From contig NC_092675.1 of assembly GCF_964355755.1 (NCBI RefSeq), positions 16,195,312-16,259,311 on the forward strand: a stretch of DNA of 64,000 bases, read 5' to 3'. Positions within the stretch are counted from its first letter, which is position 1, and each line of letters opens with the position of its first letter. Source of the stretch: Antedon mediterranea (taxonomy: Eukaryota > Echinodermata > Crinoidea > Comatulida > Antedonidae). Shown here piece after piece: positions 5,725 to 64,000 of the stretch. The position numbers and the translations under genes were made by a program. The notes beneath the pieces are model-generated. The model searched no databases and was not told the DNA's origin. It saw only the letters and a program-made list of their open reading frames with translations.

Positions 5725-5729
5725 CTGAG

Positions 5730-12262: not shown

Positions 12263-12460
12263 CTGTATGAATAGCTATCTAAAGAGGAAATAAGATGCAA
12301 CATACAAATTCAAGCTAGTAGAATACTGCCTGTAGTCACATATTTGAAAGAAGGGTTTTCTGTATCAGTCATACGTTTCTTTATATAAATACAAAATTTG
12401 AAAAATACAGAAAATATTGAATATTTTTTATTGATTTCTCTTTTTTTAGATTTGATTCAG

Positions 12461-18005: not shown

Positions 18006-19330
18006 GATGATAACCAGTTAACCTACAGAGCAGGCAAGGGAGGTACGCCCTATGTTTATAGAGTTTTCAATAAACTACACAACAAAAAAGCTAAGCCTGT
18101 CAAGGTCAATTTGCCGAAGAAAAGAAGCCGGGCGGACGTGACAAGCAGGAGGGTCAAACAACACCACCTTTTTGATGATCAATGAACCGTGATGATGAGG
18201 AGAGAGATTCTTTTTAGTAAACAATTCTGGTCTGCGCATGGTCACTGACCTCTGACCGATGGTGGCAACCGTCAACAAAAAACAACACGCCGATCGAGCT
18301 CTTCTTTCTCTCTCTAAAAACGGAAAGTAGTTTTTTAAAATGTGATAATTAAGCCTAGACAACTAAGAAAAAGATTTTGAATTGTATGTAGGCCTACAAC
18401 ATCCAACTGACATAGGTAAGGCATGTAGTATAGTTATATAGGCCTAGGCCTAGGCCCAAAAAAGAGCTATTTACTACCTACCTACTAGGTAGGCATAGAT
18501 AGCCTACTAGAGTAGGCCTACTAGGCTAGTACTAGCCTTGAGAGGGATCTAGAGAGGCCTAGCTAACTATAGCCTAGGCCTAGCTAGGCTAGTAGTAGTA
18601 GGCGCGGCCCAGAGGGCCTTATTAGCTAGACAAGTGACTATAGGCCTAGTGTAGTAGTAAGCCTAGGCTAGTAGTAGTATTACATAGCCTTTTATTATTT
18701 ATTTCTTTATTCTGACATATCATATCGATATTTTTAATGATAGACTTGGTTATTTTAAGAGGACGATTATGTGTTCACTTCTTGAACATCCTGCATAACC
18801 TGTTTTAATTGAAATTGTTTATGGCATGCCAATCTATGTTTTATTATATTTTATCTGTATTTTATTGTTAACCGTTTTTGATGTTGTATTGTTTTATGTT
18901 TCAAACCTGTTAGTGGCGGTATTTATCGCTGTTGGTTTTGATTGAATAAAATAAAAAAAATAAAATTAAAATAAAACCATAGCCTATACTAGGATAAAAA
19001 ACACAATAAAGTACCGAGACGGCAAACTTATTTCCATTGTGGTCCTAAACAAATAGGCCTAGCCCTAGGCCTATAACAGAAAAAACAAGAAAACCACATT
19101 TAATTAAACATAATAAACATACATATAGCAAATTAAATTTCTCACAATCTAAGAATTTCACGAAAGTATTTAGCCTACATTAGCATTCTTCTAGGTAGCC
19201 TAGGACTAGGCCTACCTAGCTAGAGGCTAGGCCTATCTGGCTGGGTGGGTCGGCTATCTAGCCAGTACGGTAGTGTTGTTGGATGACAGCAGGCAGCATG
19301 GATGATACTGATAGAGCTAAGCCCTTCCAG
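18006..19330. promoter_or_regulatory. Possible TMEM53/ARMH1 divergent promoter, then TAGGCC tract
   Basis: Bases 18006-18300 upstream of TMEM53 are less AT-rich and non-repetitive, with a CRE-like GGACGTGAC near 18133 and two TGACC half-sites around 18244-18258. If the human arrangement is kept, a non-coding first exon of ARMH1 could start here, since its first coding exon is 3.8 kb away behind an acceptor. From about 18380 to 18680 the sequence is a degenerate TAGGCC tract. The part near 18680-18960 ends in A-rich repeats and may be an old retroposon. I saw no coding sequence. Confidence 0.35.
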
Positions 19331-39400: not shown

Positions 39401-42400
39401 ACCAAGGTACGATGTTTTTTTATTGTTATATTCAAACAGTATTTTGTGTTTCTACTTCGGCACTATTTTAACTTTGAAATGAGATTCGGCATTATTATGA
39501 ATCTCGAGTTAAAGATGTATTTAACAAAAAAACCATTAACTGGCAGCCAATTTGACTAGTTTTTGCTTTAATTTTTTCGGGTAAATACATTTTTTTTTCG
39601 ATCCAATTTTTGGTCAAAGTGGATAACTATTAGGCCTTACGTGAAATAAAAATGGCATATTCAACAAAAATTGTTTTAAGAAATATTTTTTAGGCGAACA
39701 ATACATCTTTCAATGTTTATAATTTCCACTTGTCCTCATAGGTTGGCTTTAAAAATGACGGGAAAGATGGGAGTGGATTCTATTATATTGAAAACAGGGG
39801 TTGCCATCGACGCAAATGCGAACGTTAATTTACCAATAAATGGAAAACTAAAGGTTGACCTTTCCGAAGGAATCTATGATGTTAAGGTCAAAACGCCCTC
39901 AGAAAACAGACAACTTGTAATACTTCAAACTAAACCATACACATTCAAAGAAGAAGAAAAAGAAGATGTAAGTCTCATTATGATAAAGATGACCCAGTGT
40001 ACTAATAGAACATCAATGTAATAATAATTATTTCCTAAATAATCACTCGTTAATTATAATTATCACGTCATCTGTCGTCAATTCACCACTAACTTATAAA
40101 TAACGAACTCATCAATTACCCAAGTATTGCTTTGTCGTTTGTATCCTATTTGTTTTTATAAAAATTCAATTGCTTTTCTACCTCTTCTACCCATTTTTAG
40201 GCTTTTTAACAAACAAATTAAAAAAAAACATTATAACAATATTTTCCACGAGACTATAATAAGTATAGATATTTAATAATACATTTTTAGTGGGGTTTTT
40301 TTTAGTATATGTTTCACTGCAGGATTACTTATAAGATTTGCAATATAATAATGGTGTAATTAAACATTTTTACAGATTACAACATATAGAAATGAGGTGA
40401 AGAAACCAATTGAAGGACAACTTATCAAAAGAAAGCCATGCATTGTAAGAAAAAAAGAATTATCACATACATAGCATAATAAACAAACATATCAATGAGA
40501 ATTGTGTTAAACAGGTACTTTTAGTTCATTTTTTCAAATTCAACAAAATCAATATTTTTACAGAAGGCTATCAGTGTGGGTAAAGAAAGTATTGGTGTTG
40601 AGATAGAAGTGAGAAGTAAGTGGATCTCCTCTACTGGCGTACCATCTGCCCCGCGGTTCCCGTTATCTGGACCAGTTGACTTTAACATCACTACTCGGAG
40701 TGGAGTAAATCGACCAGAAGAGTATTCAATCACTTTAGAAGTATCCACTGTTAATGTATCATCAGAATTTATCAAAGAATCGATGGAGATTAACACATTT
40801 AGACAATGGATCACATCCAGCTCAAGTAGCTTGGAACAGAATGAGTACGTCTCATATTTGGATACATACCGTAATCATAAAAGTATGCCATTTCTATTAA
40901 AATTGCCTAGTCGCAAATACTCAGGCAACATACACTAGGTGTTCGGAATATCAGTCTTTATACACTAAAATAAGCTAAATAGTAAAAGAATACTGAAAGT
41001 AACTATGCCCTGTATGACAAATATGGTTGATGGATTGTTTTATATAAGTTTTTGATTTTATTTTAGGGGACTAGAGAGTAAAAGTAATGAAGACGAATGG
41101 ACATTTGTTCCAGCCTGGATAGGTACTATTATAGAAAAGGCTAAGGAAAAAATCATGTGTGAGATTTCTTCAAAAAGCACAGGTCGCAGTGGACGGTTAG
41201 AACTTGATGATAGAAAGTTAAGTAGGAGTAATGAAGAAAGAGCAGATTCGAAACTGGCTATTAGGTTACTTGTCACGGTGAGATTCTAAAACAGTGTTTT
41301 TCTTTTTAAATTAAACTTTAATTAAATGAAAATGGTTGAGAGACGCGTTTTCAGACAGGTAAGAATAATGTGTTTTGTCCTACAACAGAGCAGAACATTG
41401 AGTTAGGCTAAAGCTCTGTCTACACTACCAAACTACAGTGGTTGACAAATATGATATGCCCAAATATGGTAGTGAAATGACAATCATGTCGATATATGGG
41501 TAGGCCTACATCACATCAAGTTTGATAGTGTATACAGAGCTTTACACATTGTGAAATTTAAAAAGCAATAGGCCCTAATATATAGTAATTATACTATTAA
41601 ACATGTTGAGCAGATTGTTGGCATCCACGAAGAAAGAACAGAATTACAGCGAAAGATTGTCGCAGAGTTACTAATCAATGGCAATGAAGAAGGTTTTAAG
41701 ACCGTTACCATGGAACTTGTGCAGTCACCAACAAAAGCTGGAGAGATACCGCTGAAGGTAATTTTTATCTGGAGTGCCATGCAAAAATAAGATTATTCTT
41801 GGCTTTATATTCGCATTTGATTTCTGATTGAAATAACATTCCGTAATGATTTGAAACACAACATACAGATAAATCTATTTAAAAAGTGGGAAATACAATT
41901 TGATGTGATTGTGGTTGTTAAGATTAGTACAACGTTTGTTATTTTCAGTTGTGTATGCAGAATGAAATTCTTTTCCCAGCTCCAGACTTCGTTATTCCTG
42001 ATAATTTAAAGAGCTCCTCTTCTGGTTCTGGTAGTGATGCGTCAAAATCTGGAGAATCTTGGTCTGATTCAAGCGAAGAGATGAAACACCTCAGCCTTGA
42101 TGAAAGGTTACGCATCATGACAAAACAAGTCCGTAGCAAGTTGAACATTCAATGGGGCGTTAGTTGTATCAACGATAAGAAACTCGAAATTAAGGTATTT
42201 ATATAATTTACCAGCCCTAAAATTAAATGTATTTTACTATGCAATTGTTACATTCTACATGGTCTGTAGGCTTTAACAATAATTAACATGATGAAGGCTA
42301 TGTTGAATCTTTATATGATAAACAGTGAATATCCTCCTACAAAAGACAAACAATTAATACATTATTTCTCTTTCTAGGCTCGTTTTGAACAAAGCCAGAT

Positions 42401-45400
42401 GCAGCGTCAAGAACTTAAGGACAAGTTAAACCCGGTTCGAATCCAGTGTAATAAGGATCGCTCAGACGGGCTTCGATTCAGTCCCGCATGTCTAGAAATT
42501 ATCAAACAAGAGAATGAACTTCGTTCAATGCACGTTATGATGACATATGTCAACGTGAGAAAAATTATATAACTATCTATTTTAATACAGTATAATGGAA
42601 GATATGTTGCGTCCGTACCTATTTTTAATCTATTTTTTAACTATCTCAATATCAATATACACTTTCGAACGCCACGAAAATTGCATATACATTAAATATT
42701 CGATGGATAATGTAACTAGAGAAAACATTTTGTTATTGTTGGATGGGTGTGCTTACATACTCGTCACCATTAATCATAATGACGTCATTCATTTTACAGA
42801 TACCTCTATGGTACAGGATAATGTATTCTAAGATGATCTTACTTTTTGAAAAAGAAACAATGGACAATTTGGTGATCGATACCGTTGATCAAAAGAACAA
42901 AGGAGGAACGGTATATCCATGTTTATTATAACAATAATTTTGGTGGAATAATGTTTTATATAATAATAGGCCTAATGCCTATACAGTGAATACAAGTGTG
43001 GTTCAAACATTTTGTATAAAATTAATATGAAAAATAAGGACTATTTTGTAATCTTGTATTTAGGTTTTGATATCTGGGGCTATTGACAAGACTCATACAA
43101 AGATGGATTTAGTCATCAAGCATCCTTACAAAACCCTCACATGGCATGATGTATCGCTTCCAGTTCATCTAGAGCCGCTCTCAGCACGTTACAGTCTGAT
43201 TAGCCAGTACAGGCAGAGAATGTTCAACAACAAATTTCCGCGTGAGTTTTAGTTACGATAGTTAGGTATTCAACCGGGTCCTATTTTAATTATTATTTTA
43301 ATTTAGAAAATGTATAGTTTATATTGATATAATTTAGAAATAGTAGGTAGGCATAATAAATTCATACCTGTGCCGGATTATCAACATCACTATATATTAC
43401 AGCAACAACATATTTCAATTTATTATTTAGCTACGTGTAAGGTGGTAAAAGATCAAGTCAAAACTTTTGATGACCTAGAATACAACTATAATATCACCAC
43501 ATGCCCTCATATTCTTGCCAAAGACTGTTCATCGTCTGGTCTTTACACGGTCACCGCTCGCAGAAGTCCAGTTCATTCAGACAAGAAGGTGAGTTTTATC
43601 ATTGTATAGTTCTGTTCTTGGAATAACTGACAGTTCCCATTTAGCAATTGAGATTAAGCTTTATCTTCCCTGACATTGTGGAATGATGATTGTTGATTAC
43701 AATTTATGGTTACAATGAACAATAATGAGGAAAACATACAGTCGACAAAGTGTAATAATCTAACCTCATTTCCCTGTAAGGCATTTTATAGTTTAATTTC
43801 CTCATTACAAGACAGTGATCAATTTGTTTATACCATTTACTTTTCTTCTCTTTAAAAGGAAGTCATGATCCTCACTGAAGGAAATACCATTGAACTTAAA
43901 CCTCATAGTGACGTTGATAATGCAGATATCATCGTGATTGTGGATGCCATCCCCTTGGAGATCAGAAACAACCAGCAGATAACTATTTTCAGTAACGGTA
44001 AAATACTTACAGAGACCATTTTTCCACATATGGATAAAATAGAGGTCTTGAGGAAAAAGCCGTCTCCCATCACCGGATCAGCAAGCAGTGAGGAACGTCA
44101 CATAGAAGAAATCATGGTGGAAGAACTAGCCACAATTTCATTTCAAGACACTATGTCTAACTTAGATGTTATAAAATCTTCTGGAGTGACTAGGCCTACT
44201 ACTCAATTACATCCTACAGTCACACCTGAAACTGTAAAATCCTCTGTAGAACCTTCACTAAAGCCAAATGTCGACAGTGAGTCAGCCGACTCGTTAAGCA
44301 TGAGCAGAGAACGCCATGAGGAACGTGAAATAGACAGCGAAGAACGCAAATATTGGCAAGATTTTAAGATTCGAATGGAAACAATGAAAGCTGTCAACAG
44401 AACCGATTTTGGTCGAGTCGATCACGTTATCAGAAAAACAAATGATACGGTTGAAGTTGAGTGTGTATCCGTTGGACTGACGATTAAATTCAACCAGAGA
44501 TACATCAAAACTCAAGTAAGAAATCTTTCTTATCTTTTATTTTGGGAGAAGAATATTCTATTATTTTTCAGCTTAATTGATACATTTCTTCACATATCAA
44601 AGACACTTGCACATTTTTGTTAAGAAACAAAACTATTTGATATATGGCCAAGTTTTATTAATCATTGTTTTGTCATTACAGGTCTCTCCATGGTATCATG
44701 GACTACAGTGTGGTCTCTGTGGTGAATATGATGGTGAGCAAACCAATGATCTCGTGGGGCCAGAGGGGTTGAGTTACGACGACAGCCAGATTTTCGGAAT
44801 TACTTACCGTGTTTCGGATGTCAAACTATGTTCGCTTGTTACAGGTAAGATGTTAACCACTCCATGAACGAATTGTACGAATTACACGCTGTTCTTCACT
44901 CGGGTCGCGGTAAAATGTATCTTTCTAAAGAATATTGAGTATACTTCCCGTATTTCTAAACATTTTAGAAGCCCTGGCAGAGGTACAATGCACTGCAATC
45001 AAATTCAGTAATAAGGTACAGGTACGCGTAGCTACGGTGCTATATAATGATATTATTATTATGTTCTATCAAGGAAATCTAACCACTGGACACTGAGCTC
45101 GCTTTGCCAAGATAGGAACTCGTATGGCTGGTCTTATGTCTGGTTGTGATAAATACTAACAGCAGTGTACTATCCTATTATCCTCGGCGCGCGTTGCATG
45201 TATGTGGAACTGATCGTGTCGCAGCCACAGTTAAACTCTTGATCTCCGAAGCTCAGCATCCGGTTGTTAGATTGCCTCGGTTCTATCCAATAAGAAATAT
45301 CACAAGGTGTATACGCTTTGTGTAGAAACTATTTATACTCTAGCAAAGAACACGTGTAGTAGGCTATAGCATTTCATTGCTTGAAGTTGCCTGCCTATTA

Positions 45401-45708
45401 AGTGTTACGATTTTGTTGTTTTAACAGAAATGTTTGAATGCCTGCCAAAAATGAAAACAATCGTCATAGATGATGTCATTTTAGACAATGTTGAATCAAC
45501 CTGTTTCTCCAAGATACCAGTACCAAGATGTGATTCATGCACTCCGACTAAACGTCATCAAGAACTAATTGAGTTTAGTTGTCTTGAGAAGAATAGTGGA
45601 ACGCGTTACATGACAGAAAGAGCAGAGAATGAGGTTATTACCAAGGTTTCGTATCTTAAGACAGATATTGTTTCCGTCGTTGATACCCAGCTGAAATGCG
45701 TTAAATAA
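30411..45708 (+). CDS. VTG: Vitellogenin (large lipid-transfer yolk protein)
   Basis: My model has 29 exons: 30411-30465, 30788-30930, 31693-31848, 32146-32328, 33274-33358, 33780-34038, 34373-34544, 34812-35041, 35612-35777, 35967-36113, 36357-36551, 37045-37262, 37531-37622, 38204-38424, 38690-38813, 39145-39406, 39742-39967, 40376-40444, 40564-40844, 41067-41277, 41614-41757, 41949-42194, 42378-42554, 42800-42910, 43064-43241, 43431-43588, 43859-44515, 44682-44844, 45428-45708; 5610 nt, 1869 aa. Signal peptide MRYAVFILLSATIVGLYA; lipoprotein N-terminal domain to about residue 620 (WYNYEGELLTGIP, WSVNIKRGVLNLLQVNL, AYYILMETKPD); DUF1943-like region about 650-1000; VWD about 1450-1760 (VKTFDDLEYNYNI, CGLCGEYDGEQTNDLVGP); Cys-rich C-terminus. 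There is no long polyserine phosvitin, only a short acidic Ser cluster (about 1232-1250). The VWD carries a Ser/Thr/Glu-rich insertion of about 120 residues. Secreted and lipid-carrying, normally taken up by oocytes. Confidence 0.94.
35285..35545 (+). repeat. Dispersed SINE-like repeat, CAGGATGCTGAGTTCCGGAGA
   Basis: The segment starts ATCTAACAACAGGATGCTGA and continues through TGCGACACGATCAG. A reverse-complement copy lies at about 45180-45290 in the last vitellogenin intron, and a shorter direct copy at about 56620-56700 in receptor B. It is retroposon-like, but I cannot assign a tRNA head. Confidence 0.6.
36195..36275 (-). mobile_element. tRNA-derived SINE head (minus strand)
   Basis: Read on the minus strand, GTAGCTTGGTGGTTTAGGTC (A-box) and GATCCCTGGTTCAAATCT (B-box) are properly spaced. 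The sequence lies in vitellogenin intron 10. A functional tRNA is unlikely because the acceptor stem does not pair. Confidence 0.5.
37844..38016. mobile_element. MITE, GGCCGTATTCACCAATCAC family
   Basis: Inverted ends GGCCGTATTCACCAATCACA / TGTGAATGGGGAATACGGCC enclose CTTAA-rich tandem words. It lies in vitellogenin intron 13. It is the only copy of this family I noticed. Confidence 0.7.
38823..38976. mobile_element. MITE at the edge of vitellogenin exon 15
   Basis: This is a copy of the CTCTGTCTACACTATCAAAC family with ends CACTACACTATCAAACT and GTTTGATAGTGTAGACAGAA. Its left end starts only about 9 bases after the predicted splice donor of exon 15 (38814). Confidence 0.8.
39509..39712. 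mobile_element. MITE, TTAAAGATGTATTGTCC family
   Basis: Ends GTTAAAGATGTATT and GAACAATACATCTTTCAA are inverted, and the interior TTTTTGGTCAAAGTGGATAA is shared with 8835-9180. It lies in vitellogenin intron 16 and stops about 30 bases before the acceptor of exon 17. A partial related copy at about 38465-38560 lies in intron 14. Confidence 0.75.
41409..41544. mobile_element. MITE, CTCTGTCTACACTATCAAAC family
   Basis: Ends AAAGCTCTGTCTACACTACC and GATAGTGTATACAGAGCTTT are inverted. It lies in vitellogenin intron 20. Confidence 0.8.
45100..45290 (-). repeat. Reverse copy of the SINE-like repeat
   Basis: GATCTCCGAAGCTCAGCATC, then CGGTTGTTAGAT, is the reverse complement of the start of the 35285 repeat; GATCGTGTCGCA upstream matches its next part. 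It lies in the last vitellogenin intron. Confidence 0.55.
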
Positions 45709-46954: not shown

Positions 46955-49900
46955 ATGGGCTCTAATATGTTACATCGTTTCATCGAGTGGATCATATGCA
47001 TTACCTTGTTTTTAATACATGTTGAATCGAATTGCCCAACGTAAGTGACAGTTCATACTTATTTTTATGATTTATTTTTACAATTGTGCATGATAGAACC
47101 TTGATTTTTAAGGAACCCGTATTCGAGCTCAATGCATTTGGAACTTTGGAGGTCATTATATTTTTCATTGGTGTTAAGTACTCTTCATTTGTAAAAAAAA
47201 ACCGTTTACAATTGAGTCGGAGAGTTTATAATTTTAGATAGTCTGATCATAACAAATTACCTCCGTTATTTGAGAGCTCATTGGAACTAAATATAACGGT
47301 ATAAAGAGTTCAATCGGAATTTGAATTGTTTTAACAGTCTATTGTATTAAGCCTACAACTCTTAATATCATATTTTGCTATTTCAGTTAAGTTTTAAATT
47401 AAGTCATAATCAAGTTTTAACAACGATATCAGCATGGAGAAAATATTAAACTACAGTATTTTACTGGAGTCGTTTCCTGTCCTTCAAACTTCCAATCTGT
47501 GTAATTCGGTTTTATTCTTTTAAACCTATTGTTGTTGTTGTTCCGGACGACAACGTTTGTATTTATTTTATCTATTCACATTAATTAATGGTACATCCAT
47601 TTTACCATACTCCGTGATTTTACAAAATAGCAAGAAAGGTAACAAATACAAAAAAACATATTAGACTATAGAAACAAATACAGTTTATAAATACTAATAC
47701 AGGTTCAGCTGGAAGGGTTACACTCTCTAAATAAAGTGGTAATAAAATAAATAATTACATTGTTTAAACCGCAAATGCACAGTACAGTGTGTTTATTTGG
47801 AAGTTCTAATTTATCCGGTGTTACGTATAATATTTGTGAACAATTTATTGAATTAATAGTTTAGGTTTACACATAGCCTCATTGTGTTTGCGATATATAA
47901 TTTTGTTATGGAACACTAATCAATGCATTGTCGCCTTTTCCATAGTGAGATAACCTGCAATGGTGTCAACAATTGTTATGTAATCTATACTGGAAACAAT
48001 GATTGGTATTATTATCATAAACAACCGGGAAATAGTAAACACATTGGTAAGTTACATGGATTGTTACCGCCTGATGACAGACCTATCGACTGACTCTTTT
48101 TGCAATGACTACTATTAACAAATATACTAGTTCTTATATTATTATAATCTACTTTTCAGGAGGAGATCCGCCCTCTTCAGCAAGTTCATACGTACTAAAG
48201 CGTTTATCTACAAAAACGCGTTCTCCATCCGACATTGAACGCGAATGTCAAGAAGCTGGTGCAAAAACTGTCGTTATAAACAACGATCAAGAATATGACC
48301 AACTAACTCACAATATAATACATATACTGAGTACTGGTCAAAAGAGTTCATTTTACGTGAAAGTTGGGAGCTTGCAAGGATTTTCTTCTCCGTGTGGCAA
48401 GGTTACCATCGAAGATGGTTTTTTCGTTAATGAAGATGAAATTAATGAAATCCTATGCAATCAAGCTCAAAGTGTCAACGATATAGTTTGCGAGTCAATC
48501 AGTAAGTAACATACAATAGCAACATTGTGATCAATGTAAAATTCGTTTTTATTGCTTTAATTGATAATACCAGGGAAGAGTTAACTCTTCCCTGTATTGT
48601 CGCAAGATTATGATCTGAAGTTATGCATACTTCGTTGTCCTTATATAAAAGAAACAGAAAGTTAAATCCAATGATAAAATCAATCATTTGTTCTTTAGTG
48701 TTTTAGTTGTATTGTATGACTACCGGTCACGCAATGAATGCCAACAGTTTCCTGAACCTTGATTTAAAGGAAATCTATAACCTTTCAACTTTGTTACTAT
48801 AATGATTATTCTGTATGACATTTATTAATTTAAATAATCAGTATTTTATGAACTATTACGAAGAAAACTTAATAGTATAATATTATGTCCTAGGTGCTTC
48901 TGAATGTCCTGAACCGACTACTATAACTCCGACGATAACGCACCCGTCAAGTTCAGTGTCCACTGTAACTACATCACCAACCACATCAGTTTCACCAACA
49001 TCAATTACATTGACTACAAGTAGACCTACTGTTGAAGTATTAGCCAGAGAGACAACGCGTCAAGCAAAAAATATATCTGTCTTTGAATCAGAGAACCAAC
49101 CTATACAACAAACAAATGAATTTTTCACTCACACGTTCCTATATATCGTGTTGTCTGCATCGTTTGTTGTACTTTTAGTTGTGATTGGAATTACTTGTTT
49201 TCTCGTTAAGCGTCGGAAAAAGAAACGGTAAGCATTTCAACACATCCTTACTGTTTGAATTGTTGAATGTGAAGAAATTTAGTACAAAATACAGAGTATA
49301 TAAAATACAACGATAGGTGACCAAGTGGAAATATACTTGGATCATCTGCTATAGCTTGAAACTATAGTACCGTATTATCTGGATCAGTTCAGTTTATTTA
49401 CCATAGTCCTTAGTTCGACCGTGTAATTCCTATCGAAGGCCGCTTGAGTGGCTATGATAGGAAGCTCTCCATTAAACATTATCTATCCACTAGGTTCTTC
49501 TTCTACCTCGCCTTCCTTTTGCACAGTATCTCTCCGTCTGTTTTAATGGGCTTTCTGAAATTAAAGTAGTCGTGTTCGAGTCCGGTAACTGGTTCGATGC
49601 GATTTACTATGTCCTTTTCCAGCATACCACTGGTTTAGCGTTTCATATATATAATTGATTTATTAAAAAATCTTCTCTTCCAGAAAATCTGCTTGTTTTG
49701 TTGCAGTCGAACAAGATCAAAATACATATGGCGAAGCGGGCGAAGCGTCTGTGTCATTAAATGTAGCCAGCGAAACGATTCAAGTTCACTTGGACAACGA
49801 GTACCAAGATGTTGATCATCGAATGCCTAACCAGGATACGAATGTTAATCAGAAACAAGAAGTTCATTATAAAGTTCCAAAAGAACAGAATGTTTACGAG

Positions 49901-50980
49901 TCCATGCCACATGAGAGTGGTTATAATCGTGAAAAGGATTCCAAGCTCGAACAAGGAGATGCCATTGACGCCCATGTAGGACATTATTCAATCCCACGAA
50001 AAAGTGTCGACAAATATACCTCTGCTGAATGTATATACCAAGAACCAGATTTGACAGTTAATAACGATATCAAAAATAGTCGAAGTGTTAACGAAATCGA
50101 CGACGATAAATGCAACAGTAAATACCACGAGCCGTCTCCATTGAAGAACGTGACTGTGCCTGTTTATGATCTACCGAAACCAAAAGTGAAACAAGAGGAT
50201 TCAAATCGGAGTTTAGGTAAACAGAATAGTCTAAGCAATAATTGTGAAAACGAGGAAAAAATCAGCACAAAACCTCACACTCCTATGAAACCACCAAGTG
50301 CACAATTTAAAAGCAAGACAAATACTGCAAATACTGACAATAAGAAGAAGGCTAAACCAAAATACAAGATTCCATCTACTTATGACATTCATGTTCCATT
50401 CGAAATAGCAAATGAAAAGAAAGACAACCGGGAACTTAACTCAAAAGCAACGGCAAAACCATGTTTCACTCAAAAAGGTAATCAACATAATTATATTAGT
50501 ATGGACAAAAATCACGAAAAAGAGGAACGTGCCGAGCAATACTATACTCAAGAGAGTGTGAATCAATATGAGAATTACTTTGCTAAACCTGTGGATTGTT
50601 TAAGCTCAAATTATGACGTGCCACGGAAAGCTAATGAATACGAAACGTGTGATGATATGGAGGGACAAAAGGGACAAAGTGACAGCACTTATGATGTACC
50701 TAGATTACCTAACGAATATGAATCATGCGATGATAACATGAACAAGGAACGAGCTGTTAACATTTCTAACGCGTTTTATGAAGCCCTTGAACAGGGTGTG
50801 AATGACAGTAAATCACCCAAGGAAAGTGGGAAGAAAAAAACAAAAAGTAAACCAAAGACCGGTGCCAAACCAAAATCCCAGAATCCAGTGAGTGGCTACA
50901 TGTCATACGATAGTGAATCCCATGATGATCATTATCAAGAACTTGATAAATCAGCAGTTAAGATAATAAAGTTTCGATAG
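46955..50980 (+). CDS. Receptor A: lectin-like ectodomain, TM, YxxP-rich tail
   Basis: Five exons (46955-47040, 47946-48046, 48160-48501, 48894-49227, 49684-50980) give 2160 nt, 719 aa. I do not know a named homologue. Signal peptide at residues 1-25 (WIICITLFLIHVES). Exons 2-3 (about 29-176) resemble a divergent C-type lectin fold: CNGVNNCYVIY, then an ERECQEAGAKTVVINNDQEY helix/strand pair, FYVKV in place of WIGL, and a final IVCESI; EPN/QPD and WND sugar motifs are absent. Exon 4 is a Thr/Ser/Pro stalk followed by TM segment FLYIVLSASFVVLLVVIGITCFLV and a KRRKKKR stop-transfer. Exon 5 (about 432 residues) is the cytoplasmic tail, Lys/Glu/Asn-rich, with YKVP, YSIP, YQEP, YHEP, YDLP, YKIP and two YDVP. 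YDxP/YxxP are known ligands of CRK-family SH2 domains, so I infer tyrosine-phosphorylation signalling. Confidence 0.75.
48571..48594. repeat. Perfect 24-bp palindrome
   Basis: CAGGGAAGAGTT followed directly by AACTCTTCCCTG, with no loop, lies in intron 3 of receptor A. One arm (ACCAGGGAAGAGTTAAC) recurs at 56607-56623 in receptor B, joined to the SINE-like CAGGATACTGAGCTCCGG sequence. It is therefore probably the end of a repeat family. Confidence 0.75.
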
Positions 50981-51346
50981 AATATAAAGAACTTCGAAAT
51001 TCGTACGAATAATCTGGACATAGGCCTACAACCAAGAAAGACGTATTAGATAGCACGGTTCCCTTTGAGAACAAATGGAAATGTACCATCAGGGACTCTG
51101 TCTTTCTTTTATGTTTAGGCTCGATACTGTACACTTTACCTTATGAACTAATTTCCCCACGTAGCACATTCCAAATGTAAGACCATGAGGTAACTTATTG
51201 GATTCCTTGTACAGTTATTGTTGACTTGTTTGGATTTTTGTTTTTTCTTTGTTGTTGTTAGTTTCCCTGATTAATCGTTCAACAGTCATTCCTTATATTT
51301 TATATTCTGATTTTAATATTAGTTTGTAATATAAAGTATCAATGTT

Positions 51347-51352
51347 AATAAA
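51347..51352 (+). terminator. Candidate receptor A poly(A) signal
   Basis: AATAAA lies 367 bases after the stop codon, followed by T-rich sequence (GTTTTTATTTGCTTTTC). Confidence 0.55.
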
Positions 51353-51802
51353 TATGTTTTAATTGAAACTGTTTTTATTTGCTTTTCTTCGTTTTTGAGT
51401 AAACTTTATAGCATAATTGTTGCCCTCTGTTGACGTTTATTCAGGTTTTAATAATAATTATTCTAAAGCATCCACTTTTTCGTCAGAACAATGGTAGAAA
51501 AGTTAATGCTAACACAAACGATGGTTTCCGTGGTTGGGTACAGGTAAGGTAGCAGTCAGTGACACATTTCCGTATTAGTTGATAAAAGGAAATAATATTA
51601 TTTTCCTTAATTCAGTTTGCCTACCAGTTCCATTTTTCTAGATGTAAAGGTAACTTCCCTAAAAATGTATTCTATGAAGTAATTAGATAAAAATAACAGG
51701 AAAGAGTACTCAATACTGCGGCATGTGTCATGTCAATGATACATACAAAAGAGCTGTGAGGAAGTATTTATTTATCATTTGTGAAACATTCAGAACACCA
51801 TC

Positions 51803-54800
51803 ATGTTACATGGTCGTATCAAGTGGAACATTTGTATTGTCTTGCTTTCATTGCGCATTAAAGCACATCCAATGTAAGTAACATTATTTAACGATTGAGA
51901 TCGTTCAAAATCTAAATTATTGGTTAATTCAATTCGATTTACTATAATGTAGTTTTATTACTTTTTTCCATAAAACTTTTATTTTATTTTTACGTGTTGT
52001 ACGGTAACTCGATATTTTAACAATAGGAATAAAAGTGGGACGGTCACATATAATACCAACACGAAACTTTCTTTTGATTAAGACAAAACCTGTGATTTTA
52101 CCTTGATTACGATGCTGTCATTAACTAATTGATTCAGCAATATTAAAGACAGGACATGTGTCATTAATAAGCGATATAATAACGGGTACGTTGTAATTTG
52201 TCAACTACTACCTTCGTACACTCAGTGACATTTCATGATTTGTTTCTTAATCTAAATTTAACTTGATTTAAAGAAAAATCTGAATTTCAAAGCTCAGGTA
52301 CAGACATGAATTTTAAATATGCTATCTGGTTAATTGTACATAAATCAGATATTTGTAATAGAAATCAAGACGAAAAAACATGAATTTCCCTTAAAATGGT
52401 AAAATACAAAATTTGGCAAAATTCTGCTATAAACGACGTTTTCCAGTAGTTTTAACTAAACTTAAAAGTAGTTTAACCTAATGTAATAACATGTCTGGTA
52501 ACTCCTTATAAGGTGAAAAAGATGGTGGATATACGGTGGATAATTTTTGCTATATCATAAATATATAAGTTGTATAAAAATACTAAAAAACATTTTTTAC
52601 CACACCGTTTATTTTTCATATTTTTTTTAAAATGCCTCTTTATTTACAACATTTGTGTACAAAAGAATAGAGATTTTACTGTGTAATTTGAACTATTCAC
52701 CCTCTGATAAGACAGTGCTTATTTTCAACAAGCTCGTGTAACACAAATAAAATCACAATAATTATAAAACATGGGAAACTATCGATTGATAATTATTGGA
52801 ATGTATGATCAATAGAAATTTGTTGCCCGCACATGGCCTTCAATACAGTCCTCTCTACAGCATACATTACCAGATATAGGCCTACTATAACATATAGGCC
52901 TACTATTTTTATTTTATAACACCTTTTGTACGTAGGCATAGGTAATTCAAGTATTATATGTATATGTGCCATATATATATTTTTAACGTGATGTTACAAC
53001 TACAATGAAATTCCTTTTCACAGTGATGCAAGGTGTGGTGATCTAAAGCATTGTTTTATAATATACCCACTCAACAATAATTGGCGTTACTATGACCCAA
53101 TAGGCCTACCTGGAGATTGTCGAAACCTTGGTACGTAAAATAATATATTTCATTGGAGATTAGCAGCCTTCAAGATTTAAGCACACTTCTTATATTTTCT
53201 TAGACTTTAATGATTTAATCTAAATTAAAATTTATTAAAAGTGGATAACTCAACATCAATGAACGGTTGTTGACACACCTAATTCGTTCTTTTGTATTTT
53301 AGACAATTGTATTATATGTCTTCGTTCAATATTGAATTACCACCCACCCCTCCAACCACTTAGACACAAGATGGTGCACCCACCCATCATGGACAATGAT
53401 CATTAAGGACCAAATTAGTATTTCTCTGTATCGTCACCAATAATTAAAATTAAGGCATGGTTTAAACAATAGTTGATTGATTTACTAATTTCATACACCC
53501 CAGTACTCCTTTTTATTTATAAATATTAAATACAACATTTTAATGTATACTTCTCATAGGAGGAACACCACCTTATTCAGCAAGTTCATACGTGCTGATG
53601 AGTTTATCTGAAGTGCAAACTCGTTCTGGATCATATATTGAAGGCGAATGTCTTAAAGCTGATGCAAAAATTGCCGAGATAAATAGCAATCAAGAATATA
53701 ATCAACTGACAAAGAATATACTAAGCGTACTTGAATTTAGTAAGCAGAGTATATTTTTTATGAGAGTACAAGATCTACCAAAGGAAAATATTACGGATTC
53801 TTGTGGTCGGATTTCAGTTAAGAAAACCAGTCATAAAAATGAAATAACAGATGAAATAAACATTGTTGAAAATAGATGCCATCTACAACAAAATTTCAAC
53901 TATTTAATTTGCGAGTCAATCAGTAAGTATATTTACAATATATAATGTAATATCAGGTATAAATATATGTCCATATATGGGCACAACACATTTTGTTGTC
54001 AAATAAAGTTTGATAGTGTAGACAGAGCTTTAGTTGTATTGAACAGAGATAAGTGGAGTGGTGAAGTAACATTTGAAACAGTAATCATGTTTTTTACGGA
54101 GCGAATATAGTGTTTTTATAGCTTGCATCACGTTTGATATACTCTGACGCAAAGCAAATCAGTTTTTACTTTTTCAACAATCACGATCACTGTATACAAT
54201 AAAAATACTGTATCAATAATTTGCAGTTCTTGCTATCCATGTTGATTCAGAATGATACCGAACTAAAAGGCGAGGAATCCCCACTCTTGCGTTCTCGACC
54301 CTCATCCAGTGGTGGCGCCAGCGGGGGGGCTACGGGGGCTCTAGCCCCCTCGTCGGGGAGCCTAGCCCCCCGTCGGGGAACACGGGTACTTTTTGTCGGG
54401 GAATATAACATACAGTAAAAAACGTTCGCGTTCACTTCATATAGCTTCAGCGCCTAGAAAACCACGACGTTCCATTGACCGTGAAAGTACGTCAGAGGGC
54501 TATTATGCACTTTTATGCATTCATTATTGTCAGAGATCTAACTACTAAACAATAGCTAGTACGTACTTGTTTGGCGGTATCCCTTTGTACGAATCGTTCA
54601 CCGTTGGGTCGAGACGCGTGATATCATGTTCCATCCAGGGACCAAAATGTGTAATGTAGTTATTTTCCAGGCGAAGTTTACCGACGGTTACCGAAGGGAA
54701 CACGGGTACTTTTTGTCGGGGAATATAATATACAGTAAAAAACGTTCGCGTTCACTGGGTAGCTTCAGCGCCTAGAAAACCGCGACGTCTCATTGACCGT

Positions 54801-57800
54801 GAGAGTACGTCAGAGTGCTATTATGCAATTTATATGCATTCATTATTGCCAGCGATCTAACTTACTACTAAACATTAGCTAGGTACGCACTTGTCTGGCG
54901 GTATTCTATTGTACGAATCGTTCAACGTTGGGTCGAGACGCGTGATATCAAGTTCCATCCAGGGACCAAAATGTGTAATGTAGTTATTTTCCAGGCGAAG
55001 TTTACCGACGGTTCGGGTACTTTTTGTCGGGGAATATAATTCGTTCGCGTTCACTTCGTAGCTTCAGCGCCTAGAAAACCTCGACGTTTCATTGACCGTG
55101 AGAGTACGTCAGAGTGAAATTATGCACTTTATATGCATTCATTATTGCCAGCGATCTAAATTACTACTATAAACAATAGCTATAGGTACGCACTTGTCTG
55201 GCGGTATCCCTTTGTACGAATCGTTCAACGTTGGGTCGTGATATCATGTTCCATCCAGGGACCAAAATGTGTACTGTAGTTATTTTCCAGGCGAAGTTTA
55301 CCGACGGTTACGTCGTGTACTGTGTCGACGTACGCTACACTAGTTACAGCAAAAACGAATTATGTTAATTGTTCGTATGTTCACCAATTTTTTAATTTAC
55401 AAGTAACCTTCTGTACCGTGGGGCACATAAAATAAATATTATTACTAAACAAAAAAACATGCCATTTTCGCTTAGCCAACATCTTATTATAGCTAAGTTA
55501 TTAAATTTTCAATGTCCTGTATGTCATGAATTTCTCACCACTCGGAAGTCCAGATGGTACGCAGGCATACACTTGGGAGGAATAAACTTATTTCCCCGAC
55601 TGAAAAAGGTCTACGCTTGCGTTTTTTAAGCCTCTGGGCCTAATGTTTCCAAAGTATAAAATGCAATTTTTTGAAGACCTGCAGCTCTAGTTTTAAACAT
55701 TTTCTTAGCTCAGCCCCAACAATAAAGCTGGTCATATTTCGAAGTACAAGAAGTGCATTTTCCGGGACCTAACATCTCTATTTTTTATTTCTTAGCTCAG
55801 TCACAACCATGATAGGGACTTATATATTTTGTTTCATGTTTTGAAGTATAATAAGTCCAATTTCCAGGACCTCCAACTCTATTTTTCTAAATTTTCTTTG
55901 AACTTTTATTTTTTAAATTGAAAAAGATGGATTGAAACAGTCATCGCGCATCGTTTTTTTGCACGCAGTATTTTATTTATGCATTATAAAAAATGGAAAA
56001 AATGGCTACCCTAAATCTGATTAAAATGACCTCAAATGACGCTAGAACGCGTTGCTTCCGGGGGCTTTACCCCCTCGACCCCCACCGGGGGCCCTTAGCG
56101 GCCCCCTGGCCCCCAGCCTTGTGATGCTCGCATAGCCCCCTCGTCGGGGAATGTAGCCCCCGCGTCGGGAAGATCCTGGCGCCACCCCTGCCCTCATCAG
56201 CGTAATCATGCTTAATTAATTACGATACAATTACATTTCTATAGGTTCTTCCTATGTTCCTGAGCCGACTACTATAACTCAGACGACACAACGCACAAAT
56301 ACTGCAAATGCAGTCGCCACTACATCACCCATCACGAGAATGTTCTCCACCACGTCCTTCACCGCCAACGTCCCAACGACCACCAACATAAACTTGACTA
56401 CAAGTGGGACAATTACCCGGACAGAGAAAACATCTTTCATTCAATCGGAGATTCCACTAATAACAACAACCGATGATCCCATTAGTGATGATGATATGGC
56501 TATCTATATTGGGATACCTGTGTCACTAATTGTAGTTTTGGTAATGTGTACAGTGATGATCGGGTTTCTTGTTCAACGTCATAAAGAGAAACGGTAAGTG
56601 ATTGTACCAGGGAAGAGTTAACAACAGGATACTGAGCTCCGGAGATCAAAGGGTTTATCCGTGGCAAGGCGACCTCAGTGTCGTGTTGTTATATTCATGC
56701 CTTGGTTCTACGTTACAGTATCGTTTTAGTCATTCTTTTTACTTGCTAAAGGTTAAGTTGTTTTACATTCTTGCAGTGGTGGCGCCAGCGGGGGGGGGGG
56801 GGGGAGCCTGTGAGTGTTGCCACACGAAATTTACACAGTCAATATCATCGTACTCGAGAATTGATATGATTAATGACAGGGGACACGATAATTACGCGAA
56901 AAATACTCAGTCAATGTCATCGTTCTCGAGGATATATACGATTTACGATCCTCGCAGCGGTAGTCATGTGATGCAGTTTCAACCAATCACGTTCGCGTAT
57001 TTACATAGGCTATGTAATATTATGCACTATGCATTCATTATTGCCAGCGATCTAGCTATTAAACAGTAGCTAGGTACGTACGCACTTCTGGCGGTATCCC
57101 TTTGTACGAATCGTTCAACGTTGGGTCCAGACGCGTGATATCATGTTCCAAAATGTGTATTGTAGTTACTTTTCAGGCGAAGTTTACCGACGGTTACGTC
57201 GTGTACTGTGTGTCGACGTACGCTACACTACAGGAAAAACGAATTATGTTAATTGTTCGTATGTTCACAAATAAATGTTTTGATTTACAAGTAACCCTGT
57301 ACCATGGGGCACTTAAAATATATATTTCATACATTACTAAACAAAAAAACATGCTATTTTCGCTTAGCCAACATCTTATTATAGCTAATAAGTTATTAAA
57401 TTTTCAATGTCCTGTATGAACTTCTCATCACTCGGAAGTCCAGATGGACGTACGCACGCATACACTTGGGAAGTAGGCTATAAACTGATTTCCCCGACTA
57501 AAAGGTTCTACGCTTGCGGACGCACCCCACCTCCCCCTCTAAAATAAAGGCAAAACGGACCACTTTTTTTAAGCCTCTAGGCCCGATGTTTCCATAGTAT
57601 AAGATGCAATTTTTTAAGACCTGCAGCTCTAGTTTTAAACATTTTCTTAGCTCAGCTCCAACCATAAAGCTGGTCATATTTCGAAGAATAATAAGTGCAT
57701 TTTCCGGGACCTAACAGCTCTATTTTTCAAAAATGTCACAACCATTTTGTTTCTTGTTTTGAAGTATAATAAGTCCAATTTCCGGGACCTCCAACTCTAT

Positions 57801-59828
57801 TTTTCTAAATTTTCTTAGCTCCATCCCAACCACGGTTGTCTGTTTCTGTAGACTTGTAATTTCGTTTCATAGTATCATTAATATGTATATAAATTAATTG
57901 CAACTTCCGGGGACCTAGCAGCTCTATTTTTCAAAATTTTCTTACAGATCAGCCCAAGGCACGCATTTACCATTTTTGCACCCCCAGACAGCAACCACCA
58001 GCATACGGTACGCCTATGCGATAAACAATATAGGCACACCTCTTCGCCTGTGGGTAGCCTTTACGTTTGCGTATATTAATTTTTCTAAGCTACAATTTAC
58101 CCGATAAATATAGCCATATTTTGAACTTTTTTTTTTAAATTGAAAAATATGGATTGAAACAGTCATCATCGCGCATCGTGTTTTTGCACGCAGTATTTTA
58201 TTTATGCATTATAAAAAATGGAAAAAGTGGCTACCCTAAATCTTATTAAAATGGCCTCAAATGACGCTAGAACGCGTTGCTTCCGGGGGCTTCGCCACCT
58301 GGACCCCACCGGGGGCCCTTGGCCCCCAGCCTAGTGATGCTCGCATAGCCCCCTCGTCCGGGAATGTAGCCCCCGCTTCTGGAAAATCCTGCCGCCACCG
58401 CTGCATTCTTGTGATAGTAATGTGTCATGTTGTGACATAATGGAAATGTATGTGACATTGTTTTAAATAATCACTGCCCATTATGTATTTGATCTGTATA
58501 TGAATACTTTTGAAGATACTTAAAGTGGTACGAAACACACAAGATTTGTAAAATTTGTTATTTTACAGAAATAATTATGAATAGGCCTAACTAAGAAAGT
58601 AGTTTATAACGTTGTTGAAAATCTAGAATGCGCAATAAACACAGGTAATATTATATTCTGAGATTAATTACTTTAGGCATAAACTGAAATATTCTTTATC
58701 ACATTTCTCTATTTGAATAGAAATTCAAGGCTTTCTCCATCAGTCAAACCTGAAACAAATATATATGCTGATGATGATCAGATAGGGCAATCGCCTGTGT
58801 CTTTGCACTTAGCCAGTGGAGTGGATCAAATTCATTTGAACAGTGAGAATGAACATGCTAATCGGCAACAAGTATCTAAGCCGAAACAAAATGTCAAGAA
58901 TAATCAACTTAAAGATGCTACACATGTTTATTCACCACACAGTCCTCATGCTAGTGTAAATAACGAATGCGAGAGAAACGTTACCAAACAACCTCATATT
59001 GCCATGAAGCCACCGTCACGCACACCTTTTAAGAGTAGACCTAATTACGTTGAACAACAATCACGTAAGGTTCCTTCTATCTATGACGTTCCTGTGATCT
59101 CTAAAAATAAGAAAGACAGTGAAGACATTAACTCAAACTCAACGTGTGGAATAAATGGCACTAGAACAAGTGTTGATAGTCAAGAACATGGATGTGCACA
59201 TCACTATGAAAATTATTTCGGTTGTATTAATCCGCTTAGATCTCCAACACATTATGACGTCCCACGGATATCCCATGAATATGAGAATATAGAGAGGCAT
59301 AACAAATCAAACAAAGAGCATTACGATGCGCCAAGAGTACATAAAGCATGTGATGTTAAAGATAAAGAACAAACGATGTCAGATAATGAGTACGAATTAT
59401 TTGATATAGGTGTCGATGATGATAATGAATCACACAAGGAAAGTGGGAATAAATACAAAAAAGGCAAATCTTCTAAAACTCCAAATGTAGTGGGCCTGCG
59501 ATGCGATCGTGCATCTCAACATGGTGATGACCAGTTAGATCTCAATAGATCAGGACTATCTAACGAAAATGAAAACGCAAATAAAGAACAACCTGTTGAT
59601 ATTACAAACGCGTTTTATGAAGCACTTGAAACGGCTTTGAGTGAAAATATACAACCGAAGCCGAAGGAGGAAATTGCGACGAAAAATAAAAAAAGTAAAC
59701 ACAATATAGGCAAAAAAATAAAGGATAGTGATGCAAGCACCTACATGTCATACGATGCTGAACCTCAACAAAATCACCATTATCAAGATCTGGATAAATC
59801 TTCAATGACAATTATAAAGTTGCATTGA
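51803..59828 (+). CDS. Receptor B: tandem paralogue of receptor A
   Basis: Five exons (51803-51873, 53024-53130, 53560-53922, 56245-56593, 58721-59828) give 1998 nt, 665 aa, with the same intron phases as receptor A. Signal peptide WNICIVLLSLRIKAHP. Exon 2 keeps CGDLKHCFIIYPLNNNWRYY (compare NNCYVIYTGNNDWYYY). Exon 3 starts GGTPPYSASSYVL and ends LICESIS, both nearly as in A, and adds an extra Cys pair (NRCHLQ, SCGRI). Stalk and TM (MAIYIGIPVSLIVVLVMCTV) are followed by QRHKEKR. The tail shares MKPPS, YENYF, two YDVP (IYDVPVI, HYDVPRI), NAFYEALE, YMSYDAE and a HYQDLDKS...IIK terminus with A, but has only about three YxxP motifs (including YDAP). Intron 3 holds one hAT element, intron 4 another. 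Sequence divergence is moderate, so the duplication is not recent. Confidence 0.75.
53968..54033. mobile_element. Half MITE, CTCTGTCTACACTATCAAAC family
   Basis: Only the right half remains (ATATGGGCACAACACATTTTG, then GTTTGATAGTGTAGACAGAG). It starts about 45 bases after exon 3 of receptor B. Confidence 0.7.
54307..56190. mobile_element. Non-autonomous hAT element, copy 1
   Basis: CCCTCATC is duplicated exactly at 54299-54306 and 56191-56198, the 8-bp target duplication of hAT elements. Ends are CAGTGGTGGCGCCAGCG and CTGGCGCCACCCCTG. The subterminal regions are rich in GGGGGCT / AGCCCCC and CCCCTCGTCGGGG words. The interior has three tandem copies of a roughly 315-bp unit (from 54379, 54699 and about 55014 to 55312) and no transposase. 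It lies in intron 3 of receptor B and is shared with copy 2. Confidence 0.9.
54379..55312. repeat. Three tandem copies of a ~315-bp unit inside hAT copy 1
   Basis: Units begin near 54379, 54699 and 55014, each with GGGTACTTTTTGTCGGGGAA, GTTCGCGTTCACT, TTTGTACGAATCGTTC and GGCGAAGTTTACCGACGG at the same spacing. Copy 2 of the element (56774-58403) has only one, partly degenerate unit, so the array expanded within this lineage. Confidence 0.9.
56774..58403. mobile_element. Non-autonomous hAT element, copy 2
   Basis: CATTCTTG is duplicated at 56766-56773 and 58404-58411. Ends are CAGTGGTGGCGCCAGCG and, in the slightly mutated right end, CTGCCGCCACCGCTG. Internal sequence follows copy 1 closely (the AGCTCTAGTTTTAAACATTT and AATTTCCGGGACCTCCAACT blocks, GGGGGCTTCGCC near the right end). 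The poly-G run after the left end is longer. It lies in intron 4 of receptor B. Confidence 0.9.
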
Positions 59829-59943
59829 AGAATGGATAAAACATTACATTTCTTAAGGGGCGCCTAAAGTAAACATCGTAAAAATTGGTTGTTTTATGTA
59901 TTGTTATGAGTAGGCATCGTAATATTAGGCCTATATTTAAAAC

Positions 59944-60696
59944 GGGTGTCTAGAAAACTCAGATCTAGAAAACTCAGATCTCAGATATATCTGAGTTTTC
60001 TAGATTTATAAAACTCAGATATCTGGGTTTTCTAGATCTATAAAACTTAGATATCAAGATCTGAGTTTTCTAGTTCCAAAATGGAACTAGAAAGCCCAGA
60101 TCGTATTTTCTTTATGATTTAAGCCATAAGCCACTTCTACATGTTATAATATTAGTAAAGCCTGGTTTCCATAAAATCGCTACACCGTGTCGCCGACTCA
60201 GCTGTCGCCGACAGAGCGTAGCGATTCTATGGAAACGCTAGAATTTATCGGGGATCTAGTACGCGAGCGCTACATATTCTTTGGTACACACGCATATACG
60301 ATTCATCGCCGACAAAAATCGGCAAAGTTGAACATGGTTGAACTTTGCCGATTTGTCTGCGATGAATCGGGGAGACCTCCCCGATGCGCGTCGGCGACAT
60401 CTGCGCGTGTAGCGATTTCAATGGAAACGGTGTAGCGATTTTATGGAAACCAGGCTTAAGAAAACTTTATCAGTTTTAATAATACTCTAGTATTTCAAAT
60501 GACTTAGGCCTACCTTCTGATTAATATTAATGGAATGATCCAAATGACCTACCGACCAATCATTTGATGATCTGAGTTTTCTAGTTCCATTCTGGAACTA
60601 GAAAAGTCAGATATTGATATCTGAGTTTTCTAGATCTAGAAAACTCAGATATATCTGAGATCTGAGTGTTCCTAGATCTGAGTTTTCTAGACACCC
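59944..60696. mobile_element. MULE-like foldback element with 9-bp duplication
   Basis: ATTTAAAAC is duplicated at 59935-59943 and 60697-60705. The element begins GGGTGTCTAGAAAACTCAG and ends CTGAGTTTTCTAGACACCC. Both arms are arrays of TCTAGAAAACTCAGAT and its complement, about 150 bp each, which are themselves locally palindromic. A PIF/Harbinger-like MITE (60159-60456) occupies the loop. It lies 115 bases after the stop codon of receptor B, so probably in its 3' UTR or just beyond. Confidence 0.85.
60159..60456. mobile_element. MITE with TAA duplication, nested in the foldback
   Basis: TAA flanks both ends (60156-60158 and 60457-60459), as for PIF/Harbinger-type elements. The terminal inverted repeats are about 28 bp and nearly perfect (AGCCTGGTTTCCATAAAATC, then GCTACACCGT). 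The interior has further inverted GCCGAC/GTCGGC and GATGAATCG words. The short open frame across it (60187-60435) follows from these repeats and is not a gene. Confidence 0.8.
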
Positions 60697-60705
60697 ATTT
60701 AAAAC

Positions 60706-62789: not shown

Positions 62790-62908
62790 GTAGTGTAGAA
62801 GTTGGGAGTATTATGCGTGGGAGACACAGTTAAAACAATTTTTCGTGTAAATACGATATTAATTGTAAGTTTTAAGGTGCTACCCCATTTGCTGTATATA
62901 TTTTCATA

Positions 62909-63166
62909 ATGGAACCAAGTGAAGAACGTGTAAATACTCTTGTTAACATGGGGTTTTCTAACGTAGAACAAGTTAGGCGGGCACTGAAATTGAGTCATGA
63001 CGATGTTAACGAGGCAGTGGCCATCCTCACAAACGAGCATTCGACCAATTCATTTGATACCCTGGATGATATTGAAATGAAGGATATGGACGGTGGTCGC
63101 TCTAATGTTCATTACGGTCCAGATCCACCCCCTCCTTCGTACGATGAAGCTGTAGAACCAATCGAG
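62909..63166 (+). CDS. USP24: USP24 first coding exon (partial gene)
   Basis: The exon encodes 86 residues, from ATG 62909 to donor GTATAT at 63167. It starts MEPSEERVNTLVNMGFSNVE, with a UBA domain at about residues 5-45 (MGFS loop, VRRALKLSHDDVNEAVAILTNE). DPPPPSYDEAVEP follows. Human USP24, a ubiquitin-specific cysteine protease of about 2600 aa, opens with a UBA of the same kind (MGFS, RKALRLA.NDINEAVALLTNE) and a Pro-rich DPPP.Y segment. The catalytic domain lies far beyond the window. The identification rests on this N-terminus only; another UBA-containing deubiquitinase is the alternative. Confidence 0.8.
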
Positions 63167-64000
63167 GTATATGTTCATACATTTTCTGAGGAAAATACTT
63201 CCTGTTTTTATTTACAGTAATTAAATTAAATTGTAAACGATGAGCATGCTACTTCCATCCATAAATCCATACTACTTTCTAGGCCTAGGCCTAATTACTA
63301 TACTTTACTAGGCCTAGCCTAGACCTGGTTGTGGTCCTATAAGGCTATGCTACTCTTCTAGTAGTAGCCTAGGCTAGTACTAGGCCTAGCCCTACTAGTA
63401 GTAGTAGAGGGTGTGTCGAAAGCGAAGACCTCGAAAGCAAAGATCGAAGACCTCGAAAGTGAAGACCCTACGAAATGGTAGTGTGCACAAAATCCGACCA
63501 AAATCATACAAAATCATGATAACACCTTGAATTTACAGATTCTAAAAAAATATTTCGATTTTAATCGTTATGTTATCAAAAAACATGACTTTATCTATGA
63601 ACAAGCTTACGTGTTTTCGCCAATGGAGTTAGGCCTAATATGTGATATGGTTTTACGAACAAACATGCTATTTGCAAGGCGACGGACGCACAAGAAGGAC
63701 ATCGCACATACTGTAGCATTGAATTGAATATAATTATTAATATATATTAATATATTAATTAATATAGTATTACTACGGTACCGATAACTTTATGTCACAC
63801 GTCGCCTACAATTTAAAACCATAGCCAATTGTAGTATAGAAAAGTATAGAAATAAACTACAGTAAGTAAATTGTAAGAAGTAAAGGATTGCGATAGGCAT
63901 ATTTAGGCTAATTTTAGAGCCTATATAAAAAGTGTCCGTATCATAGATTTTACACTTGTTTTTAAAAATGTTATACGCGTGAATACAAATTAGAGATCCT
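63167..64000 (+). other. USP24 first intron (start), with repeats
   Basis: The intron begins at 63167 and runs off the window. It contains a TAGGCC tract (63275-63400) and a short tandem array of CTCGAAAGCGAAGAC-like units (63416-63472). The frame at 63527-63727 has no recognisable features. An AT-rich palindromic stretch of ATTAATATA words lies at 63728-63770. Confidence 0.55.
63416..63472. repeat. 15-bp tandem repeat, TCGAAAGCGAAGACC type
   Basis: Four degenerate units (GTCGAAAGCGAAGACC, TCGAAAGCAAAGA, TCGAAGACC, TCGAAAGTGAAGACC) resemble the arms of the foldback elements. No inverted partner is visible before the window ends. Confidence 0.6.

Follow-up and report, generated by a model that had tools for sequence, protein, structure and literature searches.

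Two tandem genes of the comatulid crinoid Antedon mediterranea, here called A and B, appear to encode membrane receptors in which a divergent C-type-lectin-like domain (CTLD) is joined to a tail that would dock CRK once phosphorylated, a reading to which we give a probability of roughly 60%. The genes lie within 64,000 nucleotides of contig NC_092675.1 (positions 16,195,312 to 16,259,311, forward strand; contig C6 of the 354-Mb genome), and this whole stretch, hereafter the window, supplies the coordinates below unless C6 is named. We infer direct CRK docking for A and, less surely, for B. Phosphorylated YxxP is bound by CRK-family SH2 domains in other systems, and choanoflagellate pYDVP-R peptides bind crka1 (PMC5043372).

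Each gene consists of five exons joined in frame at GT/AG sites, with intron phases 2, 1, 1, 2 in both. The proteins follow one order of parts, namely signal peptide, ectodomain, Ser/Thr-rich stalk, a single hydrophobic helix, basic residues and a long polar tail encoded by one exon, and the receptor anatomy proposed in the initial annotation is thereby upheld. Gene A (719 aa) is laid out as follows:

46955..47040, forward strand: exon 1, in frame with a GT donor, from the start codon through the signal peptide to the Cys-Pro at the start of the ectodomain.
47946..48046, forward strand: exon 2, the N-terminal part of the CTLD (CNGVNNCYVIY...W), with similar exons in relatives.
48160..48501, forward strand: exon 3, the main part of the CTLD (IERECQEAGAKTVVINNDQEY ... 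C ... C ... CES).
48894..49227, forward strand: exon 4, the Ser/Thr-rich stalk, the transmembrane (TM) helix and the basic stop-transfer KRRKKKR.
49684..50980, forward strand: exon 5, the cytoplasmic tail, in which YxxP accounts for 8 of the 25 tyrosines.
49868..50701, forward strand: the YxxP array, with Tyr codons at 49868, 49985, 50036, 50123, 50165, 50363, 50612 (YDVPR) and 50690 (YDVPR), positions derived from the exon coordinates and, for the last two, verified in the sequence.

In a structure model of A, residues 251-288, in the exon 4 region, form a helix. The predicted protein is 100% identical to an NCBI entry named "uncharacterized protein [Antedon mediterranea]" (P0001 in our numbering of database proteins), a match that supports the splicing. 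Gene B (665 aa) comprises:

51803..51873, forward strand: exon 1, the signal peptide.
53024..53130, forward strand: exon 2, the N-terminal part of the CTLD.
53560..53922, forward strand: exon 3, the main part of the CTLD, matching A at E 4.9e-20.
56245..56593, forward strand: exon 4, a Thr-rich stalk and the TM helix.
58721..59828, forward strand: exon 5, the cytoplasmic tail with YDVP (59082), YDVPR (59253) and YDAPR (59322).

Two profile searches containing B returned no B protein of comparable length, and the support for the B model therefore comes from its splice sites, its intron phases and its similarity to A. The two proteins are 42% identical, and their ratio of nonsynonymous to synonymous divergence (dN/dS) of about 0.46 (dS 0.97, dN 0.45) argues that both genes are coding; both values are as expected for what are predicted to be fast-evolving coding duplicates. 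Introns 3 and 4 of B (54290-56200 and 56770-58410) contain long insertions that look similar by eye and have ends rich in GGGGGCTAGCCCCC-type sequence; these are perhaps copies of one mobile element.

In line with the count of the initial annotation, the tail of A holds eight YxxP motifs, YDVP included (residues 350, 389, 406, 435, 449, 515, 598 and 624), and that of B three. The excess in A is strong: shuffled tails averaged 1.5, and eight was reached in 0 of 20,000 shuffles and in 1 of 5,000 in a second run. Other spacings from Y to P (1 to 7) occurred 0-3 times each, as counts without a shuffle comparison. Residues 598 and 624 of A alone align with YxxP in B (475 and 498), and both pairs read YD(V/A)PR; the third motif of B, at 418, aligns to Y521 of A, which reads YDIH. 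The tail of A matches only A and B in a search of the genome, and the two tails have the blocks YENYF, YDVPR, YD(V/A)PR, NEYE, NAFYEALE, YMSYD and HYQ(E/D)LDKS in common.

Two results nevertheless weigh against CRK docking. The YxxP count of B, which has 15 tyrosines, is only marginally in excess (shuffle mean 0.9; three reached in 1036 of 20,000 and 266 of 5,000 shuffles), and six of the eight sites of A have no YxxP partner in B, which weakens the case for conservation. Both results would also suit a fast-drifting disordered tail in which the number of YxxP is mostly lineage noise without CRK function, as would the lower conservation of the N-terminal part of the tail (38% identity, dN 0.54) and the structure model, in which the tail of A is almost entirely without structure. 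Such drift is nonetheless highly improbable in our view, as no shuffle among 20,000 attained the count of A and the YDVPR, YD(V/A)PR and NAFYEALE blocks have been retained in both genes at dS of about 1.

That the ectodomain of A and B is of CTLD type is supported by relatives, profiles and models, in keeping with the divergent CTLD proposed initially, and it is probably a single CTLD of the long form. Profiles of the family matched mainly CTLD-protein chains in the PDB (40 of 50 and 25 of 27), chiefly over the N-terminal half. The structure prediction called for in the initial annotation gave a CTLD-like fold: an AlphaFold2 (AF2) model of the relative P0002 shows the full CTLD order, and a low-confidence model of A agrees in order, its strands becoming fewer and shorter toward the C-terminal end. 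Both models align to CTLDs along the ectodomain, and CTLD proteins account for 49 of the best 50 rows shown for each. The fold-table row that could not be placed was 8oks_B, a Bdellovibrio domain; 3l9j_C, titled as a TNF antagonist in the P0002 table, is presumably built on the tetranectin CTLD. Cysteines C92, C141, C162 and C173 of A are kept in B, and across 18 exon-3 rows the first and last of the four are invariant and the second nearly so; we take these cysteines to be paired, which would be consistent with the fold.

The Pfam results count against this assignment. Even at a threshold of E 10 neither A nor B matched Lectin_C, which appeared below its cut-off in 3 of 10 exon-3 relatives and among six database relatives was listed for P0002 only, at E 0.61 (the Pfam rows for P0005 being the best 25 of 29). 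A single-sequence search of the PDB with the A ectodomain gave nothing better than E 0.1. Matches to TMEM154, RIFIN, Orf78 and similar stalk or TM families were taken as low-complexity TM matches; TMEM154 stood just above its cut-off in P0002, P0004 and P0005. A and B do not show the motifs of a calcium-dependent sugar-binding C-type lectin: neither EPN nor QPD occurred in any of the 25 rows scanned (18 covering exon 3 and 7 the ectodomain, with overlap); WND occurred in two of them, neither being A or B.

The initial annotation presented A and B as an isolated pair. The profile search that it proposed did recover relatives, all of them crinoid (Antedon and Anneissia japonica) and uncharacterized, and the pair proved not to be isolated: A and B are diverged representatives of a family that numbers at least 19 loci in the Antedon genome. 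Against the 17 exon-3 loci other than B, the A ectodomain gave a best E of 2.9e-13 at 25-37% identity. Searches with A alone and with A and B returned A only, and a four-row profile returned six further Antedon proteins (P0002-P0005, P0009 and P0010) and three from Anneissia japonica (LOC117119950, LOC117117346 and LOC117117365), all named uncharacterized. None came from outside the crinoids among the 7990 candidates sharing most 5-residue words, a result that does not imply wider absence. P0002 is identical to G39, one of two Antedon relatives, with G47, whose five-exon models we completed. LOC117117346 (P0007), annotated as a 954-aa protein that has two tails and two TM segments, seems to be a fusion, made by the annotation, of two neighbouring genes of the family and was left out of two alignments (A4 and A5); a third (A2) held 16 of 17 relatives, a partial locus at 26.85 Mb being left out, and P0003, P0009 and P0010 were kept though annotated without a normal N-terminus. 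In a tree of the family A and B form one clade (support 100/99) on a long branch, B being flagged; the tree does not fix their place in the family or relative to Anneissia, and its bootstrap did not settle.

We define the family by its ectodomain, not its tail: ectodomain and exon plan are common to A, B and their relatives, and the tail is not. In A, B, G39 and G47 alike, the first three introns are in phases 2, 1 and 1; the intron that separates TM from tail, intron 4, is in phase 2 in A and B but in phase 1 in G39 and G47. A profile built from six long tails picked up neither the A nor the B tail at E<=10, whereas 4 of 100 shuffled tails did appear, and the hhalign probability was 0.1%; a tail common to A, B and their relatives was thus rejected at this sensitivity. 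This lack of similarity together with the phase difference, which itself favours exchange, fits a tail exon that was exchanged, the alternative being extreme divergence with a moved intron. Tyrosine-rich open frames stand beside two outlying relatives (C6:15786321-15786761 and C6:726070-726720, 147 and 217 residues long with 14 tyrosines each) and are perhaps further tail types.

Five long-tailed database relatives also carry YxxP, at one to four per tail: P0002 has 2, P0003 1, P0006 2, P0007 3 and 3, and P0008 4. These counts were reached in 805, 2405, 811, 107 and 46, and 22 of 5,000 shuffles, respectively, and are clearly above chance in P0007 and P0008 only; the Anneissia tails are near copies and not independent cases. 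YxxL/I/V, by comparison, is above chance in every one (6, 5, 8, 8 and 8, and 6, against 1.1-2.7 expected; reached in 3-75 of 5,000 shuffles), and in P0004, P0005, P0009 and P0010 the tail is short and contains no YxxP. One may thus postulate that the tails of the family are general phosphotyrosine scaffolds (YxxL/I/V, YxN and YxxP, with phosphatase, Grb2 and CRK-type SH2 partners), A and B being one version in which CRK is minor or incidental; the retention of YENY, FYEAL and HYQ(E/D)L in both genes would agree with this. We consider such a scaffold unlikely as an account of the pair, since in the tail of A YxxL/I/V and YxN remain at chance level while YxxP is far above it, and since the YDVPR core is bound by a CRK-family SH2 domain in vitro (PMC5043372).

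Receptors with CTLDs and transmembrane YxxP dockers are each already known kinds. DCBLD1 and DCBLD2 (8 and 7 YxxP) bind CRKL-SH2 after phosphorylation by Src-family or Abl kinases, and like A and B they are transmembrane with multiple intracellular YxxP, which this binding needs (PMC6029619); such motifs number 8 in A and 3 in B. Their vertebrate ectodomain of CUB, LCCL and FV/FVIII parts is, however, not a CTLD, and no common tail origin is implied. Membership of the DCBLD family was ruled out, as A and B gave no CUB, LCCL or discoidin Pfam match at E 10 and the ectodomain models as a CTLD. Choanoflagellate YxxP proteins (PTSG_05573 and others) likewise combine transmembrane YxxP repeats with pYDVP-R peptides that bind a CRK-family SH2 domain, but they are pre-metazoan, have extracellular DUF5011, thrombospondin or growth-factor-receptor-like parts and in some cases own SH2-like domains (PMC5043372). 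CD93 has a CTLD, a mucin-like region and one TM segment and is linked to Crk, DOCK180 and Rac1; it differs from A and B in its 47-aa tail, its EGF-like and sushi-like domains and its access to Crk via Cbl, and no YxxP array is described in the part of the source consulted (PMC12428824). Among the crinoid paralogues, CTLD ectodomain, stalk and TM agree with A and B, and the tails differ, being of YxxL/I/V plus YAVP/YDVP type or short.

A Pfam scan of A and B found neither SH3 nor a C-terminal FAT-like domain. Some of the YxxP motifs of p130Cas read YDVP, and to our knowledge that protein has neither a TM segment nor a CTLD. p130Cas/BCAR1 likewise has a YxxP substrate array, with 15 motifs, and differs from both genes in its SH3 and FAT-like domains (PMC5043372). 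The initial annotation had known of no lectin-like receptor with such a tail. This stands to the extent that no publication pairing YxxP with C-type lectin was found (one term pair, with subscription papers mostly outside the search); it must be narrowed in that the CTLD receptor CD93 was already tied to Crk via Cbl (PMC12428824) and transmembrane CRK dockers with multiple YxxP motifs have already been described, their ectodomains being of other kinds. Nothing on the crinoid family appeared in titles or abstract openings on Anneissia immune receptors, crinoid coelomocyte phagocytosis, or echinoderm C-type lectins and tyrosine, among the matches listed. In the literature searched, a CTLD joined directly to a YxxP array thus appears undescribed, as does a crinoid family with exchangeable tails.

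Phosphorylation, CRK docking, ligand, cell type and outcome are what we infer in the following scheme. A and B would be type I membrane receptors whose CTLD, lacking EPN and QPD and carried on a mucin-like stalk, binds a ligand that is probably protein or matrix. Clustering would lead Src- or Abl-family kinases to phosphorylate the YxxP tyrosines, and the phosphorylated array, chiefly the paired YD(V/A)PR sites, could then dock the SH2 domain of CRK, for which the Antedon genome holds a CRK-like candidate gene whose SH2 and SH3 pieces are correctly ordered. Docked CRK may recruit exchange factors of DOCK or C3G type to the membrane, with Rac/Rap-dependent actin change and adhesion, spreading or uptake as the putative result; the action of CRK on Rac during migration and engulfment runs via DOCK180 (PMC2689226).

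Like CD93, layilin or DCBLD2, the receptors may serve adhesion or endocytosis in a non-immune tissue and not coelomocyte immunity or phagocytosis, and CRK docking may hold in either case. Src, Cbl, Crk and DOCK180 are employed by CD93 when endothelial cells adhere and migrate (PMC12428824), and this analysis gave no pointer to immune cells; on the other hand, a multigene family whose members are clustered and diverged, some with long and some with short tails, resembles immune-type receptor families, by analogy only. We put the non-immune role at somewhat below even odds. A broader proposal, tentative and rather doubtful, is that the clustered crinoid family swaps signalling tails: the A/B branch would have taken on another tail exon, one that bears a p130Cas-like substrate array and couples lectin-type recognition directly to engulfment or motility via CRK, DOCK and Rac, with no docking protein in between, whereas most long-tailed members would use YxxL/I/V, YxN and few YxxP, and others are short-tailed.

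Exons of a vitellogenin-type gene (33761-45708, forward strand) end just upstream of gene A; Vitellogenin_N fell just below its cut-off and Vit_open_b-sht and VWD above theirs, and two of five frames tested gave nothing. Reverse-transcriptase-like open frames lie at 5685-7064 and 23239-24753 (forward strand), RVT_1 being confirmed in the latter and the former seen by eye only. Downstream of gene B, at 59940-60700, several TCTAGAAAACTCAGAT-like motif copies were seen by eye in both orientations. Rfam and tRNA scans of the window returned nothing. Further genes, assigned by Pfam, are:

12389-14897, forward strand: BTB-BACK-Kelch gene (frame 13198-14268).
17100-18017, reverse strand: DUF829 gene.
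25776-26105, forward strand: DUF5578 gene.
62876-63220, forward strand: start of a UBA-domain gene.

If the tail does dock CRK, one receptor would unite CTLD recognition with a p130Cas-type substrate array, and an independent animal case would be added to the choanoflagellate and vertebrate YxxP transmembrane dockers. Crinoids would also be credited with a definite multigene family of receptors whose tails can be exchanged, a layout comparable, by analogy, to the paired natural killer (NK)-type receptors of vertebrates.

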